From Hydrococcus rivularis NIES-593 (GTDB taxonomy: Bacteria; Cyanobacteriota; Cyanobacteriia; Cyanobacteriales; Microcystaceae), in NCBI RefSeq assembly GCF_001904635.1, contig NZ_MRCB01000002.1, positions 62,001 to 126,000 of the forward strand: a stretch of 64,000 nt of DNA. The letters run 5' to 3'. The first letter of the stretch is position 1. The number at the start of each line of letters is the position of its first letter. The notes below the pieces were generated by a model. The model ran no database searches. It was not told the origin of the DNA and saw nothing but the letters and a program-made list of their open reading frames with translations. Positions 24,635 through 31,944 of the stretch are shown one piece after another. The position numbers were made by a program, and so were the translations under genes.

Positions 24635-26059
24635 TTAATCTCGATAAACTTCTTTTAATACCCTTCCATCAGATCCAATCAATTGAATCTGTAACGGCAT
24701 TTGACCTACTGCGTGGGTAGAACAACTCAAACAAGGATCGAAGGCACGAATTCCCGCTTCGACTCGATTGAGCATCCCTTCAGGAATTTCTGTGCCATGG
24801 ATGTAATGCTTAGCAATTTGAGTTACGGTTTTGTTCATTGCCAGGTTGTTTTGTCCGGTGGCAATAATCAGGTTGACTTTTTTAATCAAACCGTTCTCGT
24901 CGATTTGATAATGGTGGAACAGCGTTCCTCTGGGCGCTTCGCTAACACCAATACCTTCGAGTTGGTTAATTCCAGCTGTAGCACGGGTGCGATTGGAAGT
25001 AATATCGGGATCGTCGATGAGTTGAGAAATTCGTTCCAAACAGCCCAAGATTTCAACTAGGCGGGCATAGTGATATAAGAATGAGGAAGTGGCAACGCCG
25101 CCAGCGCGATCGCGATACTCTATCAATTCCTTATCCGCTTCTGGCGTACCGAAATGGGAGCAAACGTTGAGTCGTGCCAAAGGACCAACTCGATAGATGC
25201 CGTCGGGATAACCTAATGGCTTGTAGTAGGGGAATTTCAGATACGACCAGTTTTCCACGGCTTCCCCTAAAAAGTCTTTATAGTCATCTTCGCTAAGACC
25301 ATCGGCGACGATATTCCCTTCGCTGTCGGTAAAGCGCAGATGACCGCCATAGTGATCCCATTCGCCGTTTTTGCCGACCAATCCCATATACAGGGAAGGG
25401 AATTTGCCAAATGCTTCGACTTCGGTCACAAAGCGATCGAGTAGGTTTTTAAACAAATCGAGTGCCATCCTGATGGTAGTAAAGGACTCCGGCAAGCGAT
25501 CGCGTATCCATTCCCGTCCTTCTTGTGAAAGGGGAGTACGCACCCCGCCAGGAACCGCCCAAGCGGCATGAATTTTCCTCGCCCCCAACAACTCGATTAC
25601 CGTCTGTCCGAACTGGCGCAAGCGAATCCCTGCCCTTGCCAACTCCGGATCGGAGCCAATTAAACCAAATATATTACGTTTTGCCGGATCGCTATCCCAT
25701 CCCAGCAGAAAATCGGGACTGCTGAGATGGAAAAAAGAAAGGGCATGAGATTGGGTAATTTGTCCCAAATTCATCAATCGCCGCAGCTTTTCTCCAGCAG
25801 GGGGAACTTTAACCGCCAGCAGTTTATCGCCTGTTTTTGCCGAAGCGAGTAAGTGACTCACCGGACAGATGCCGCAAATGCGGGCAGTAATGCCAGCCAT
25901 TTCGGGGAAAGGTCTTCCCTCGCAGAATTTCTCAAATCCCCGATATTCAACGACATGAAAGCGGGCATCGTCTACTTCGCCTGCATCGTTTAAGTAGATA
26001 GAAATCTTCGCGTGACCTTCTATGCGCGTGACTGGATCGATGACTACTGTTTTAGACAT
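24635..26059 (-). CDS. hoxH: Bidirectional [NiFe]-hydrogenase large subunit
   Basis: Carries the NiFe(CN)2CO active site. 474 residues. The four nickel-binding cysteines are present: [10 protein letters not shown] (Cys62, Cys65) and DPCLSCSTH (Cys443, Cys446). Twenty-five residues follow His449, the typical C-terminal extension removed by the maturation protease HoxW after nickel insertion; hoxW is not in the window. It is the last gene of hoxEFUYH, separated from hoxY by a heptamer repeat. Confidence 0.97.
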
Positions 26060-26126: not shown

Positions 26127-26675
26127 TTAACCAAACTTAATCATTTCTCGTCCCTCCATTTTGGGTTTTTCTCCTCGCAATAAGGGTTCGATGGTTGCTT
26201 TGATGCGAGGGGCATCGGGCGGACATCCCGGCATAAAAATATCTACGGGGACGACTTCGTGAACGGGTAAAACTTTATCTAACAATTCGGGAACGATTCC
26301 CGGTTCGTGGGGGAGTTGGGGCTTGAGGTCGGCTAGTTCTATGTAGCCTCTTTGAAGTACGGGATCGGCTCCCTTCAAGATATTGCGCATTGCTGGAACG
26401 TTAGCAGTAACGGCGCAATCGCCAAAGGAAACGAGGGTTTTTGTCCGCGCCCTAACTTTGCGAATCAGTTCCAAATTGTCTTCGTTTGCCACGCCTCCCT
26501 CAACTAAGCAAATATCCACGCCTTCGGGATATTCTTTGAGGTCGCAACCGACGGGACTGTAGACAACATCGACGTAGTTAGCGAGTTCGAGCAACCATTC
26601 ATCCAAGTCGAGAAACGACATATGACAGCCCGAACACCCCGCTAGCCAAACTGTAGCAAATTTAATTTTAGTCAT
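26127..26675 (-). CDS. hoxY: Bidirectional [NiFe]-hydrogenase small subunit
   Basis: 182 residues. Holds the proximal [4Fe-4S] cluster that passes electrons between HoxH and the diaphorase part. Cluster ligand regions are GCSGCHMSFLD (Cys14, Cys17), the later GDCAV and GCPPDAPRI. There is no signal peptide, as expected for the cytoplasmic Hox enzyme. It starts 50 bp after the hoxU stop. Confidence 0.96.
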   Translation of the reverse strand: MTKIKFATVWLAGCSGCHMSFLDLDEWLLELANYVDVVYSPVGCDLKEYPEGVDICLVEGGVANEDNLELIRKVRARTKTLVSFGDCAVTANVPAMRNILKGADPVLQRGYIELADLKPQLPHEPGIVPELLDKVLPVHEVVPVDIFMPGCPPDAPRIKATIEPLLRGEKPKMEGREMIKFG

Positions 26676-26724: not shown

Positions 26725-27441
26725 TCATCGCGTCCATTCGTGTTTTTCTCTGGCATTGACCAGAAATTCGAGTTTGGCGCGATCGCGTTCTTTTTCTGCC
26801 GTGGTGGTTCCTTTGCGGAAGATTGCCCCCGTCGGACAAGCATCGACGCACTTGCCGCAAGAGGTACAAGCGCTTACCTCGCCCCAGGGCTGATTTAGCC
26901 CGGAAATAATGTAAGCAGCTGCACCGCGTTGTCCTACATCCCAAACGTGTGCCCCTTCGATTTCGTCGCAGACGCGAACGCAGCGGGTGCAGAGGATGCA
27001 ACGGTTGTGGTCGATGCCAAACTGCGGGTGAGAGATGTCAACGCCGCGATTGGGAAAGCGATAGGGAAAGCGCGTATGATCCATTCCCACTTGAATAGCA
27101 ACGTCCTGAAGTTCGCAATTGCCATTAGCGATACAAATAGAGCAAACGTGATTGCCTTCGGCAAAGAGCAATTCCACTGCCATGCGCCGATATTCTTGCA
27201 GTTTGGGGGTATTGGTACGCACTACCATCTCTTCTGCTACTTTCGTAACGCAAGATGGCAAGAGTTTATTGGTGCCTTCTATTTCTACCAGACACAACCG
27301 ACAAGCCCCCACATCGGAAACCCCGTCTAAATGGCAAAGGGTAGGAATGGGAATGCCCGCCTCTTTTGCTGCTTCTAAAATGGTAGCTCCATCTTCTATA
27401 GCGACGGGTCGATCGTCGATGGTTAAGGTTCTGACCGCCAT
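26725..27441 (-). CDS. hoxU: Bidirectional hydrogenase diaphorase subunit HoxU
   Basis: 238 residues, an Fe-S protein related to the N-terminus of complex I NuoG. The N-terminal [2Fe-2S] ferredoxin-like domain has CHLDGVSDVGACRLC; next comes the HVCSICIANGNCELQ cluster region near residue 100, then two [4Fe-4S] sites CILCTRCVRVC (~143-153) and CTSCGKCVDACPTGAI (~190-205). It transfers electrons between HoxF/HoxE and HoxY. Confidence 0.96.
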   Translation of the reverse strand: MAVRTLTIDDRPVAIEDGATILEAAKEAGIPIPTLCHLDGVSDVGACRLCLVEIEGTNKLLPSCVTKVAEEMVVRTNTPKLQEYRRMAVELLFAEGNHVCSICIANGNCELQDVAIQVGMDHTRFPYRFPNRGVDISHPQFGIDHNRCILCTRCVRVCDEIEGAHVWDVGQRGAAAYIISGLNQPWGEVSACTSCGKCVDACPTGAIFRKGTTTAEKERDRAKLEFLVNAREKHEWTR

Positions 27442-27578: not shown

Positions 27579-29198
27579 CTAATGACTTACTAATACTTTT
27601 CCGTTCGGACTTTCTTGACTCAGCAACGCTAAATACTCTTCCTTGAAATAGCGCAGCGTACTCAAGACTGGATTGGGGGCACTGATCCCCAAACCGCACA
27701 GACTGGTATCCCTGACCATGTAACAGAGGTCTTCTAGTTTTTCCAAATCGGCCATGGTTGCCTGTCCCTTGAGAATTTTGTCGAGGAGTTCGTATAGTTG
27801 TACCGTACCCGCCCGACAGGGAATGCACTTGCCACAGGATTCTTCTCGACAGAATTCCATATAAAATTGGGCGACTTCTACCATGCTGGTGCTTTTATCC
27901 ATGACCACCATGCCGCCCGAACCCATCATCGAACCGACTTTGGTTAGGGAGTCGTAGTCTACAGGCGTATCGAGTAAGGAGGCGGGAATACAGCCGCCAG
28001 AAGGACCGCCCGTTTGCACGGCTTTGACTTCGCCATCGGGAACGCCGCCGCCCATGTCTTCGACGATTTCCCGCAGGGTAATCCCCATGGGGACTTCGAT
28101 CAGACCGTTGTTGCGAATTTTCCCGGTGAGGGCAAAGATTTTGGTGCCTTTGCTTTTTTCGGTACCGATACTGGCATACCAGTCTGCCCCTTCTCGGATG
28201 ATGGCGCTAATGTTAGCGAAGGTTTCGACGTTATTAATGAGAGTAGGACAGCCCCACAAACCGGATTCAGCGGGATAGGGCGGACGGGGAATTGGGTTGC
28301 CTCGCTTACCTTCTACAGATTGGATCAGGGCAGTTTCTTCGCCGCAGACAAACGCGCCCGCCCCGATGCGAATGTCGATCTTGAAATCAAAGGGAGAATC
28401 GAAGACTTGACTGCCGAGAATTCCGTATTTTCTGGCTTGCTGGATGGCTTTTTGCAGTCTTTGGATGGCGAGGGGATATTCGGCGCGAACGTAGATAAAG
28501 CCATGGTTGGCACCGACGGCATATCCTGCGATCGCCATTCCCTCTAATACCAAGTGGGGATCGCTTTCCAAGACGCTGCGATCCATAAAAGCACCAGGAT
28601 CGCCTTCGTCTCCGTTGCAGATGACGTATTTTTGCTCCCCAGGCATTTTTGCTACGGTTGCCCACTTCAAGCCCGTAGGATAGCCGCCGCCGCCGCGCCC
28701 GCGCAGCCCGCTTTTACTAATTTCTTCTACCACTTGAGGGGGGGACATTTCGTAGAGCGCTTTGTAGAGAGATTGATAGCCTCCAACCGCTATATATTCT
28801 TCGATGCGTTCGGGATCGATCTTGCCGCTATGTTTCCTGACGATCCGCATTTGGCGGGCAAAAAAGGGATGTTGGAAGTCGCCTTTAACTGCTTTTCCCT
28901 CTCCCTCGTTGAGAGCGGCAACGATGCTAGAGGCATCTTCTGGGGTGACTTCTTCGTAGAGGGTGTCTTCTGGATCGATTTGCACCAAAGGTCCGCGGCC
29001 GCAAAATCCCATACAGCCTACACCGATGACTTCAACGCGATCGCTCAACCCCGTTTCTTCTACCGCATTTTCAAGATTCCGCTTCACTGTCAGGGAATTA
29101 GCGGCTTGACAACCCGTCGAAGTACAGCAATGTACTCGAATGCTTTTTTGTCTTTCCCGTTCTGCTTTGGCTACTTCTAATAGTTCGCTCAAATCCAT
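27579..29198 (-). CDS. hoxF: Bidirectional hydrogenase diaphorase subunit HoxF (NAD(P)H/FMN)
   Basis: 539 residues, NuoF-like. An N-terminal thioredoxin-like [2Fe-2S] domain ([18 protein letters not shown]) precedes the FMN/NADH domain ([13 protein letters not shown] near 170, the [13 protein letters not shown] loop) and the C-terminal [4Fe-4S] site [13 protein letters not shown] near 455. It couples the hydrogenase to NAD(P)H or ferredoxin. The gap to hoxE is 48 bp; the gap to hoxU is 137 bp with no inserted ORF. Confidence 0.97.
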
Positions 29199-29246: not shown

Positions 29247-29795
29247 TTAAGAAGCTTTAGACCGCCAAGCTTTGATTTTGTCGAGTACCATTTCTGGCTC
29301 TTGTTTCCCGGCAACAGCGCCATCAAACACGACTGCCGGAGCGATGCCGCATGCCCCAATACAGCGCGCTGCCATCAGAGAGACTTCTCCGTCTGGCGTG
29401 GTCTCGCCAATGCTAATGCCGAGTTCTTTCTCCAGTGCTGCCACGATCTTGCCGCTCCCTTTGACGTAGCAAGCCGTTCCCAGGCAGACGACGCAGCTAT
29501 GAGCGCCGCTGGGTTTGAGCGAGAAGAGATGGTAAAAGGTTGCCACGCCATAAACGCGACTCAACGGCAATTTCAACTGTCGCGCCACGTACTCCAGCAC
29601 CTCTGGTTCTAGGTAGCCAAAGGATTCCTGCGCCTTATGCAACACTTCAATTAAGGAATCCTGGCGATAATGGTGGCGCTTCATGGTGATGTCTAGCGCT
29701 TTTAAGCGTTTGTCTGCCTGTTTATCGCTCTTAGGATTGGCTTTTTTTTCACTTGACAATTCTTTAACTTTTTGTTCGGTCGTAACGGTTTGCAT
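29247..29795 (-). CDS. hoxE: Bidirectional hydrogenase diaphorase subunit HoxE
   Basis: 182 residues, NuoE-like. The [2Fe-2S] ligands are Cys104 and Cys109 (CLGTAC) and Cys145 and Cys149 (CIGAC). A lysine-rich, low-complexity segment of ~35 residues precedes the core. It is the first gene of hoxEFUYH. Its start codon is about 60 bp downstream of a 14-bp palindrome (29854-29867), and behind that lies the pckA pseudogene in the same direction. Confidence 0.95.
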   Translation of the reverse strand: MQTVTTEQKVKELSSEKKANPKSDKQADKRLKALDITMKRHHYRQDSLIEVLHKAQESFGYLEPEVLEYVARQLKLPLSRVYGVATFYHLFSLKPSGAHSCVVCLGTACYVKGSGKIVAALEKELGISIGETTPDGEVSLMAARCIGACGIAPAVVFDGAVAGKQEPEMVLDKIKAWRSKAS

Positions 29796-29853
29796 CGTTG
29801 TTAATCCCTTTTGCCTTTTTTATGGGTGCCAAGCTTTGCTCTCCCAGGAAGGA

Positions 29854-29867
29854 CGGTTCGCGAACCG
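29854..29867. promoter_or_regulatory. 14-bp perfect palindrome upstream of hoxE
   Basis: CGGTTCGCGAACCG lies between the pckA pseudogene and hoxE. It could be an operator, or a short hairpin terminating pckA transcription. No promoter elements could be placed with confidence in this 83-bp gap. Confidence 0.4.
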
Positions 29868-29878
29868 CCTCACTGCAT

Positions 29879-30770
29879 TTATTGAACCTTCGGATTTGCT
29901 TGGACAATTTCTGGACTGGCGGTAGTAAACTTTTGGAAATTCTCGACAAACCTTTTAGCTAATTCTCGCGCTTGTTGCTCGTAAGCTTCTGGATCGTTCC
30001 AAGTATTTTAAGTATTTTTAGGATTGAGAATTTTACTGGGTACTTCCGGTACGGTTTCTGGGAGAGAAAAAACACTGACCAAAACATGCGGAGAAAGTCA
30101 CTTGAGGTGTGGTAATTCCTCGCTCTGTTCCCGCTAGCTTGCTCGTGTAACCAGAGATGACAAACCCTTCGCTGCGGATGCCATCTTCTTCTGGGTCGCC
30201 TTGGAATCCCGGTACGGCAATAACGGTAAAATCTGCTTGATGCTCTGCTAGCTCGTCTGTCGTCGGTCGCAAGAACAGTTGATGAACAAAGAGGTTTTGG
30301 AAGGCAAATTCGTTGACGACGCGAACGCCAAACCGATACCTGGGATCGGCACCGACAAAATCATCAAAAATATAGAGATCGCGCCCCTGAACGTAGGCGA
30401 GAACTCGCCGATACAAGCGATCGAAAGTCTCTTCGTACAGGGGAACATTGAGGTTATTCCAGTGAATCTCGTCGCGAGTGCTGGGTTCGTCAACGATATA
30501 TCTGTCCTGTGGCGATCGCCCGGTATATTTTCCCGTCTCGACAACGAAAGCGCCATTGCTGGCTAGCCGTCCTTCGCCACGCGCGAGGGCGTGTTGAATC
30601 AACTGCGCAACGGGGATATTGCGATAGACCCAACCCGGATTTTTGATACCCAGCGTCTCCAATCCGTAAGTTTCAGGATGATACAACTTATCAAAAGAAA
30701 AGAGTTCTTTGCTCGAAACATTGCTTCTATTCCGTTCTAGAAGATATTGAGTTAACCCTGAGTTGAGCAA
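29879..30770 (-). pseudogene. pckA: ATP-dependent phosphoenolpyruvate carboxykinase, decayed
   Basis: The N-terminal ~210 residues match PckA (LYHPETYGLETLGIKNPGW, ETGKYTGRSPQDRYIVDE, RYRFGVRVVNE). The frame then jumps from EGFVI straight to SGYTSKLAGTERGIT, losing the P-loop and metal-binding residues, about 150 residues in the family. After SACFGQ a second deletion plus frameshift joins to LPETVPEVPSKILNPKNT. There a 9-bp tandem duplication (AAAATACTT twice) creates a TAA, after which NTWNDPEAYEQQARELAKRF...EIVQANPKVQ continues to the natural stop at 29879. The 5' end has only a TTG start. The intact enzyme is ~530-540 residues, so this copy cannot be functional. Confidence 0.93.
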
Positions 30771-30815
30771 ACTCCGGTAATCGTTACTCTCTAAACTTTT
30801 AAGCTCGATCGTGAC

Positions 30816-31488: not shown

Positions 31489-31944
31489 TTAATTTCTAGT
31501 GAGCCACTTTTGACCGTTAAGACGCTGCAAAGTATACATGATCAGTAAATCCAAGCTCGCTTTGCGCTCGTCTATCATAAACGACTCGATAATGCTGGGG
31601 CGAGCGCCATTGGTGCTGCAAGAAAAGGCTTTTTTGCCGTTGATATTTTCGTCTAAAAAGTAAAGATTAAACTGACGCTTTCCGTTTTGCCATTTGCCGA
31701 TGACTTGCCAGCACTGCTCGTTTGCTCCCGCTATAGGCAGCGGTTCCTTAGCAAACTTTAACTCCGCATCCTCAAGTCCTAGCTTAGCCAAGGTTTCTTT
31801 GAGAGCAGGAACGAAGTGCTGCTCCATAAATTCGGTAAAGGGTTTATCCTCAATGGCGGGTTCTTTCGGCTTTTTCGCTGCTGCTGGTTTTGTTGCGGCA
31901 GCAGGCTTTTTGGTTTCTGGAGTGGGTGTGGTTTCTTCTGCCAT
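31489..31944 (-). CDS. DUF2996 protein
   Basis: 151 residues. A low-complexity N-terminus of Ala, Lys, Pro and Thr (residues 1-35) is followed by a conserved domain (FTEFMEQHFVPALKETLAKLG, CWQVIGKWQNGKRQFNLYFLDENINGKKAFSCS, PSIIESFMIDERK). This matches the cyanobacterial/plastid DUF2996 family of unknown function. Soluble. It is divergent from bciB, with a ~200-bp shared upstream region. Confidence 0.85.
   Translation of the reverse strand: MAEETTPTPETKKPAAATKPAAAKKPKEPAIEDKPFTEFMEQHFVPALKETLAKLGLEDAELKFAKEPLPIAGANEQCWQVIGKWQNGKRQFNLYFLDENINGKKAFSCSTNGARPSIIESFMIDERKASLDLLIMYTLQRLNGQKWLTRN

Follow-up and report, generated by a model that had tools for sequence, protein, structure and literature searches.

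The minus strand at positions 29879-30815 of the window (the whole stretch of 64,000 nucleotides from Hydrococcus rivularis NIES-593 that was analysed) carries a pckA pseudogene, located directly upstream of hoxE. Very probably, it is what remains of a redundant second pckA that was inactivated in a common ancestor with a sister genome and was then trimmed differently in each lineage, with an intact copy elsewhere. The sequence-only reading of this DNA had proposed a relic of the gene for ATP-dependent PEP carboxykinase at this very place, and the Pfam matches, the alignment and the relic in the sister all agree with that identification.

A search with Pfam profiles gave two matches of PF01293 at the relic, one covering profile positions 3-160 (E 1.3e-52) and the other 352-385 (E 3.4e-11). 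Their scores of 180 and 43.8 bits, against a cut-off of 26.5, establish the ancestry from ATP-dependent PEP carboxykinase by homology. The similarity to PckA extends to 30803 according to tblastn, slightly 5' of the end given earlier. The N-terminal part is in frame up to GFVI, where it is joined to SGYTSK at about 30156/30155, an in-frame fusion that leads into SGYTSKLAGTERG. Alignment to a relative of 557 amino acids (L076) revealed that residues 207-398 of the latter, about 192 codons, are gone at this junction, in frame, and that this first deletion takes both the P-loop and the kinase-2 motif, which have roles in PEP carboxykinase. At the second junction, after SACFGQ(CFF), residues 429-500 (about 72 codons) are gone and the frame is shifted. 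Further on, the unit AAAATACTT is present in two tandem copies and the resulting TAA is in frame with the C-terminal part. The anatomy read from the letters (Table 1), in which an in-frame deletion takes the P-loop, a deletion past SACFGQ shifts the frame and a 9-bp duplication creates a TAA, thus proved accurate throughout.

Compared to PckA (PF01293, TIGR00224, NF006820) the relic keeps the N-terminal part with the YTGRSP stretch, the SGYTSKLAGTERG and FGQ stretches and the C-terminus, whereas about 192 and 72 codons are deleted, the frame changes, a premature stop is present and the P-loop is lacking. More specifically, neither the P-loop (GLSGTGKTT) nor the kinase-2 motif (GDDEHG), which begin at residues 262 and 281 in L076, is found. 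The longest frame with a start codon counts 245 codons (30033-30770), a full-length frame of roughly 520-600 codons being precluded by the frame change and the TAA, and TIGR00224 yields 206.4 bits against a cut-off of 590.05. The disabling lesions, together with further decay in a relative, mark the gene as a pseudogene.

Table 1. Features of the pckA relic and its surroundings in the window
Feature	Position	Strand	Basis
DUF2996 gene, upstream flank common to G002	31489..31944	-	PF11210; synteny
pckA relic, N-terminal fragment	30156..30815	-	PF01293 3-160; 205 codons, TTG at 30770 to junction
In-frame deletion junction, P-loop removed	30155..30156	-	alignment to L076
Relic fragment SGYTSKLAGTERGITTPQVTFSACFGQCFF	30066..30155	-	PF01293 352-385, E 3.4e-11; L076 alignment
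Second deletion junction, frame change, common to G002	30060..30069	-	alignment
9-bp tandem duplication, giving TAA at 30008-30010	30001..30018	-	repeat in sequence; none in G002
C-terminal fragment up to natural stop TAA (29879-29881)	29879..30060	-	sequence, alignment
hoxE	29247..29795	-	NF005747, 276.3 bits, cut-off 224
hoxF (presumed)	27579..29198	-	NuoF-family matches, cluster position
hoxU	26725..27441	-	NF005745, 428.6 bits, cut-off 333
hoxY (presumed)	26127..26675	-	below-cut-off matches to hydrogenase subunit families
hoxH (presumed)	24635..26059	-	below-cut-off matches to hydrogenase large-subunit families

In a genome of the same genus that is available as one contig of 4,986,817 bases (G002), the corresponding position, flanked by the DUF2996 gene and hoxE, is also occupied by a relic. 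Comparison with this genome (G000) showed that its second junction is identical and that it lacks the 9-bp duplication. The N-terminus is gone (about residues 1-224 of L076), the part with the P-loop is retained but carries a frameshift, and much of the stretch that is missing here by the first deletion is still present. Since the second deletion is common and the other lesions are private, the two relics are complementary. Over the DNA aligned from the SGYTSK stretch of the relic into hoxF, 1121 of 1161 positions are identical. Because G002 has the same junction without the duplication, the latter is derived, and the common junction likewise implies that this copy of pckA was dead before the two genomes split. 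The decay had been judged recent. By this comparison that view may hold for the P-loop deletion and the duplication, which are private to this genome, but not for the second deletion, which is older than the split. In trees, the end branches of the relic pieces exceeded the median by factors of 2.6 and 2.7 (0.6 versus 0.23 and 0.25 versus 0.092), a length that fits relaxed constraint.

One could argue that the frame 30033-30770, being open, still yields a useful truncated protein of 245 codons. This is very improbable, as the frame lacks the P-loop and the kinase-2 motif, the sister has deleted the N-terminal part and keeps another part, and the end branch of the relic is long. There is also scarcely any chance that the relic is an artefact of assembly or sequencing: this genome was assembled in 67 contigs, yet the common junction is found at the same place in the single contig of the sister. 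That same junction led us to reject the second deletion as an assembly collapse.

The metabolic consequence that had been drawn from the relic, namely that PEP carboxylase would be left without its decarboxylating counterpart, needs to be corrected, for pckA is still in the genome. Indeed, an intact pckA was sought elsewhere in the genome and in a relative, and it was present in both: a profile search of the contigs revealed a gene of 595 codons on another contig (C1), and G002 also has an intact copy, in the same surroundings. Loss of PckA from the genome is thereby ruled out. Comparison of the intact copies of G000 and G002 gave a dN/dS of 0.106, as under purifying selection. The gene adjoins one with a weak, below-cut-off match to RNase D.

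The preferred history, that of a redundant second copy, then runs as follows. Immediately upstream of hoxEFUYH, and in the same orientation, there was formerly a second pckA, distinct from the intact copy. The frame-shifting loss of about 72 codons towards the C-terminus inactivated it in the common ancestor with the sister, as shown by the common junction. Afterwards, the P-loop region was removed in frame in this lineage, which also gained the 9-bp tandem duplication, and the sister lineage lost the N-terminus and acquired a frameshift. Because neither frame has all catalytic motifs, the relic should yield no PEP carboxykinase; the intact copy presumably supplies that function, and the relic copy was probably tolerated as redundant.

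Matches to PF01293 at E up to 0.001 were found in 37 of 388 sampled genomes of the class, 33 of them over the cut-off and 27, near full-length, with at least 696 bits, so that the statement that few cyanobacteria carry pckA is in line with this sample. Within the family, 24 of 50 genomes have a match. A wider search of the phylum (186 of 386 genomes matching) concerned mostly other classes and was kept out of the cyanobacterial count. Two further likely relics of pckA were observed, each in another genus of the family: a C-terminal piece with one in-frame TAG (G268:C58:7652-7861, L095), and pieces of 40-59% identity with one in-frame TAA (G283:C1:604664-604843, L096). The patchy presence of pckA together with these likely relics suggests that the gene probably decayed more than once. 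Five genomes of one cyanobacterial family (G413, G428, G436, G453 and G462, family f55) have long open frames with a weak PF01293 match, possibly a distinct PckA-like group.

The relic and the genome's intact PckA (C1:276661-278049) belong to the same family and subfamily, NF006820 being the best NCBIfam match of both. They differ in genomic place, and the N fragment of the relic is only 59% identical to its intact paralogue, compared to 71% for L079 and 70% for L076, L077, L080 and L012. In a tree of 61 rows the relic stood beside PckAs of Xenococcaceae/Pleurocapsa and L079, with weak support (85/43). Constraining it with the intact copies of the genus was not rejected (p-AU 0.208 with three copies and 0.06 with two), nor was the same constraint on the pieces of the G002 relic (0.539) or a position of the relic inside the Xenococcaceae group (0.322). 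The N fragment used in the trees comprised 212 residues, 7 of them past the deletion junction; in the trees for the topology tests 8 distant rows of 60 were left out, and one stop each in the tblastn stretches of L005 and L077 was set to X. The source of the relic copy may thus be an old duplication or a transfer.

The gene hoxE starts 83 bp past the stop of the relic, on the same strand. The 3' end of the relic could have been recruited to serve the hox operon as a promoter or leader and retained for that role. Between G000 and G002 only 3 of 256 aligned bases before hoxE differ, against 9 of 94 in the adjoining part of the relic (Fisher p 0.0006). Moreover, a perfect 14-base palindrome, CGGTTCGCGAACCG, is found between relic and hoxE (29854-29867), and a passage of PMC2674450 places the hox transcription start of Lyngbya majuscula 27 bp upstream of hoxE. 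However, three spacers close by differ at 10 of 301 sites, a rate from which the 3 in 256 is not distinct (p 0.16); it is the stretch with 9 in 94 that exceeds the spacers (p 0.02). In addition, the promoter search found no sigma-70-like site in 29796-30100, and folding of the leader was no better than that of shuffles (z +1.09; 176 of 200 shuffles at least as good), so that an RNA structure in the hox leader found no support either. We consider recruitment unlikely, and reuse of the relic's end by hox is not supported by these comparisons. The window contains no other site like the palindrome at up to 3 mismatches. Gene conversion from the intact copy was discarded as the cause of the 9 in 94, both relics being about equally distant from both intact copies.

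The genes at 27579..29198, 26127..26675 and 24635..26059 are those that we take to be hoxF, hoxY and hoxH, the first from its position in the cluster and the other two likewise from position. In G002 and G003 a gene for an FAD-binding protein (PF01494, scanned in L166) separates hoxU from hoxY (L016 12699-14273; L166 584-2050); the window lacks it there. A small ORF and genes for a PAS protein and a SpoIIE-type phosphatase follow hoxH in G002, and in G494 they come after adhE (L016 16424-18387; L135 9883-11854); none of these was found beside hoxH in the window.

Some relatives have ppsA next to pckA or hox. Among 58 loci of pckA, which are partly redundant, six (L076, L077, L078, L080, L135 and L155) have ppsA next after pckA, as does L173, and L076-L078 are among the nearest kin of the relic. 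In the congeners G001 and G003, ppsA is located directly upstream of hoxE and PFOR further upstream in opposite orientation; tblastn detected no traces of pckA around their ppsA and hoxE (L030, L031, L166, L167). One genome of the class, G494, has hoxEFUYH, adhE, pckA and ppsA in one block, the order on the single strand being hoxE, F, U, Y, a CBS gene, hoxH, adhE, the PAS and SpoIIE-type genes, a hydrogenase maturation protease gene, pckA and ppsA (L135). In a Xenococcaceae MAG (L082; L191 2066-4630, 4919-10105), hoxEFUYH is immediately preceded by a glycogen-phosphorylase-type gene (PF00343), and an intact pckA lies at the other end, convergent with hoxH. The best ppsA of this genome and of G002 is found elsewhere, beside CBS and PFOR genes, and has 89% identity to the hox-linked ppsA of G003. 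The ppsA and PFOR of this genome score over their NCBIfam cut-offs, and although the ppsA matches in this genome and G002 count stops, a frame of 833 codons is open in both. A CBS-CP12 fusion lies between ppsA and PFOR in this genome (L174 7738-8349), and a relative of it lies between hoxY and hoxH in L135.

Among 122 hoxE-bearing genomes searched, six (G001, G003, G410, G570, G513 and G498) have ppsA at most 5 kb from hoxE, five of them upstream and on the same strand; a universal stress protein gene stands in between in G570 and a like-sized ORF in G513. The ppsA search at E up to 1e-100 matched 119 of the 122 genomes, with distances read from the coordinates, and the count left out 19 of 132 hoxE-positive genomes (weaker or split matches), plus G006 and G016. 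By chance, with rough values for genome size and for the number of copies, about 0.31 genomes would be expected (Poisson p 1e-6 for six genomes and 3e-4 for four genera), and the statistic is post hoc because the idea arose from G001 and G003, which are both counted. At 17 of the 22 hoxE loci of the close set, own genome included, none of pckA, ppsA, PFOR, adhE, CBS or glycogen phosphorylase genes occurs within about 1.5 kb; pckA is near 2 of the 22, ppsA near 2 and PFOR near 1. Full-length pckA and a strong HoxH (at least 700 bits) occur together in 18 of 30 genomes and lie within 15 kb in at least one of the 18 (G494), a lower bound because contigs are fragmented. One of the 19 named pckA loci (L082) has hox genes in its flank. 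No match for pckA, ppsA or PFOR was found beside hoxE at the hox loci of the L076-L078 genomes (L188-L190, the upstream part of L188 being less than 1 kb), and a contiguous pckA, ppsA and hoxE was seen at none of the examined loci.

The pseudogene itself is ordinary: it represents the decay of a redundant copy, which matters little alone, and nothing essential is lost. The neighbourhood is suggestive, as it may point to a turnover of genes for dark carbon metabolism next to the hydrogenase. Judged from adjacency, the place of the relic would fit a loose and reshuffling set of genes for dark carbon metabolism and fermentation around hox (pckA, ppsA, PFOR, adhE and glycogen phosphorylase). We tentatively put forward, as a possibility with somewhat less than even chances, that genes of dark carbon-routing enzymes (pckA, ppsA, PFOR, glycogen phosphorylase) are exchanged on the 5' flank of hoxEFUYH in cyanobacteria, the relic being a snapshot of an ancestral pckA-ppsA-hox unit in turnover. 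In this genome and its sister a dying pckA would have been kept at hox, and the hox-type ppsA lies elsewhere, next to genes for CBS-CP12 and PFOR; in the two congeners ppsA is located at hoxE and no pckA was seen there. If so, the bidirectional hydrogenase would be regulated together with the interconversion of PEP, pyruvate and oxaloacetate in the dark.

Literature searches, judged mostly from listings, gave no recognisable report of pckA or ppsA beside hox, and the word 'phosphoenolpyruvate' is absent from the main text of a survey of the phylum (PMC5186783). PEPCK is described as working in either direction in a passage of PMC8100219. The place of the relic adds an enzyme of the PEP node to the fermentation genes known beside hox, and as such bears on what the cyanobacterial bidirectional hydrogenase is for. 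Passages of PMC2674450 and PMC3858816 report PFOR before hoxE in Lyngbya. Both systems thus have the gene of a central fermentation enzyme 5' of hoxE, which is PFOR in Lyngbya, whereas here it is pckA, and dead.
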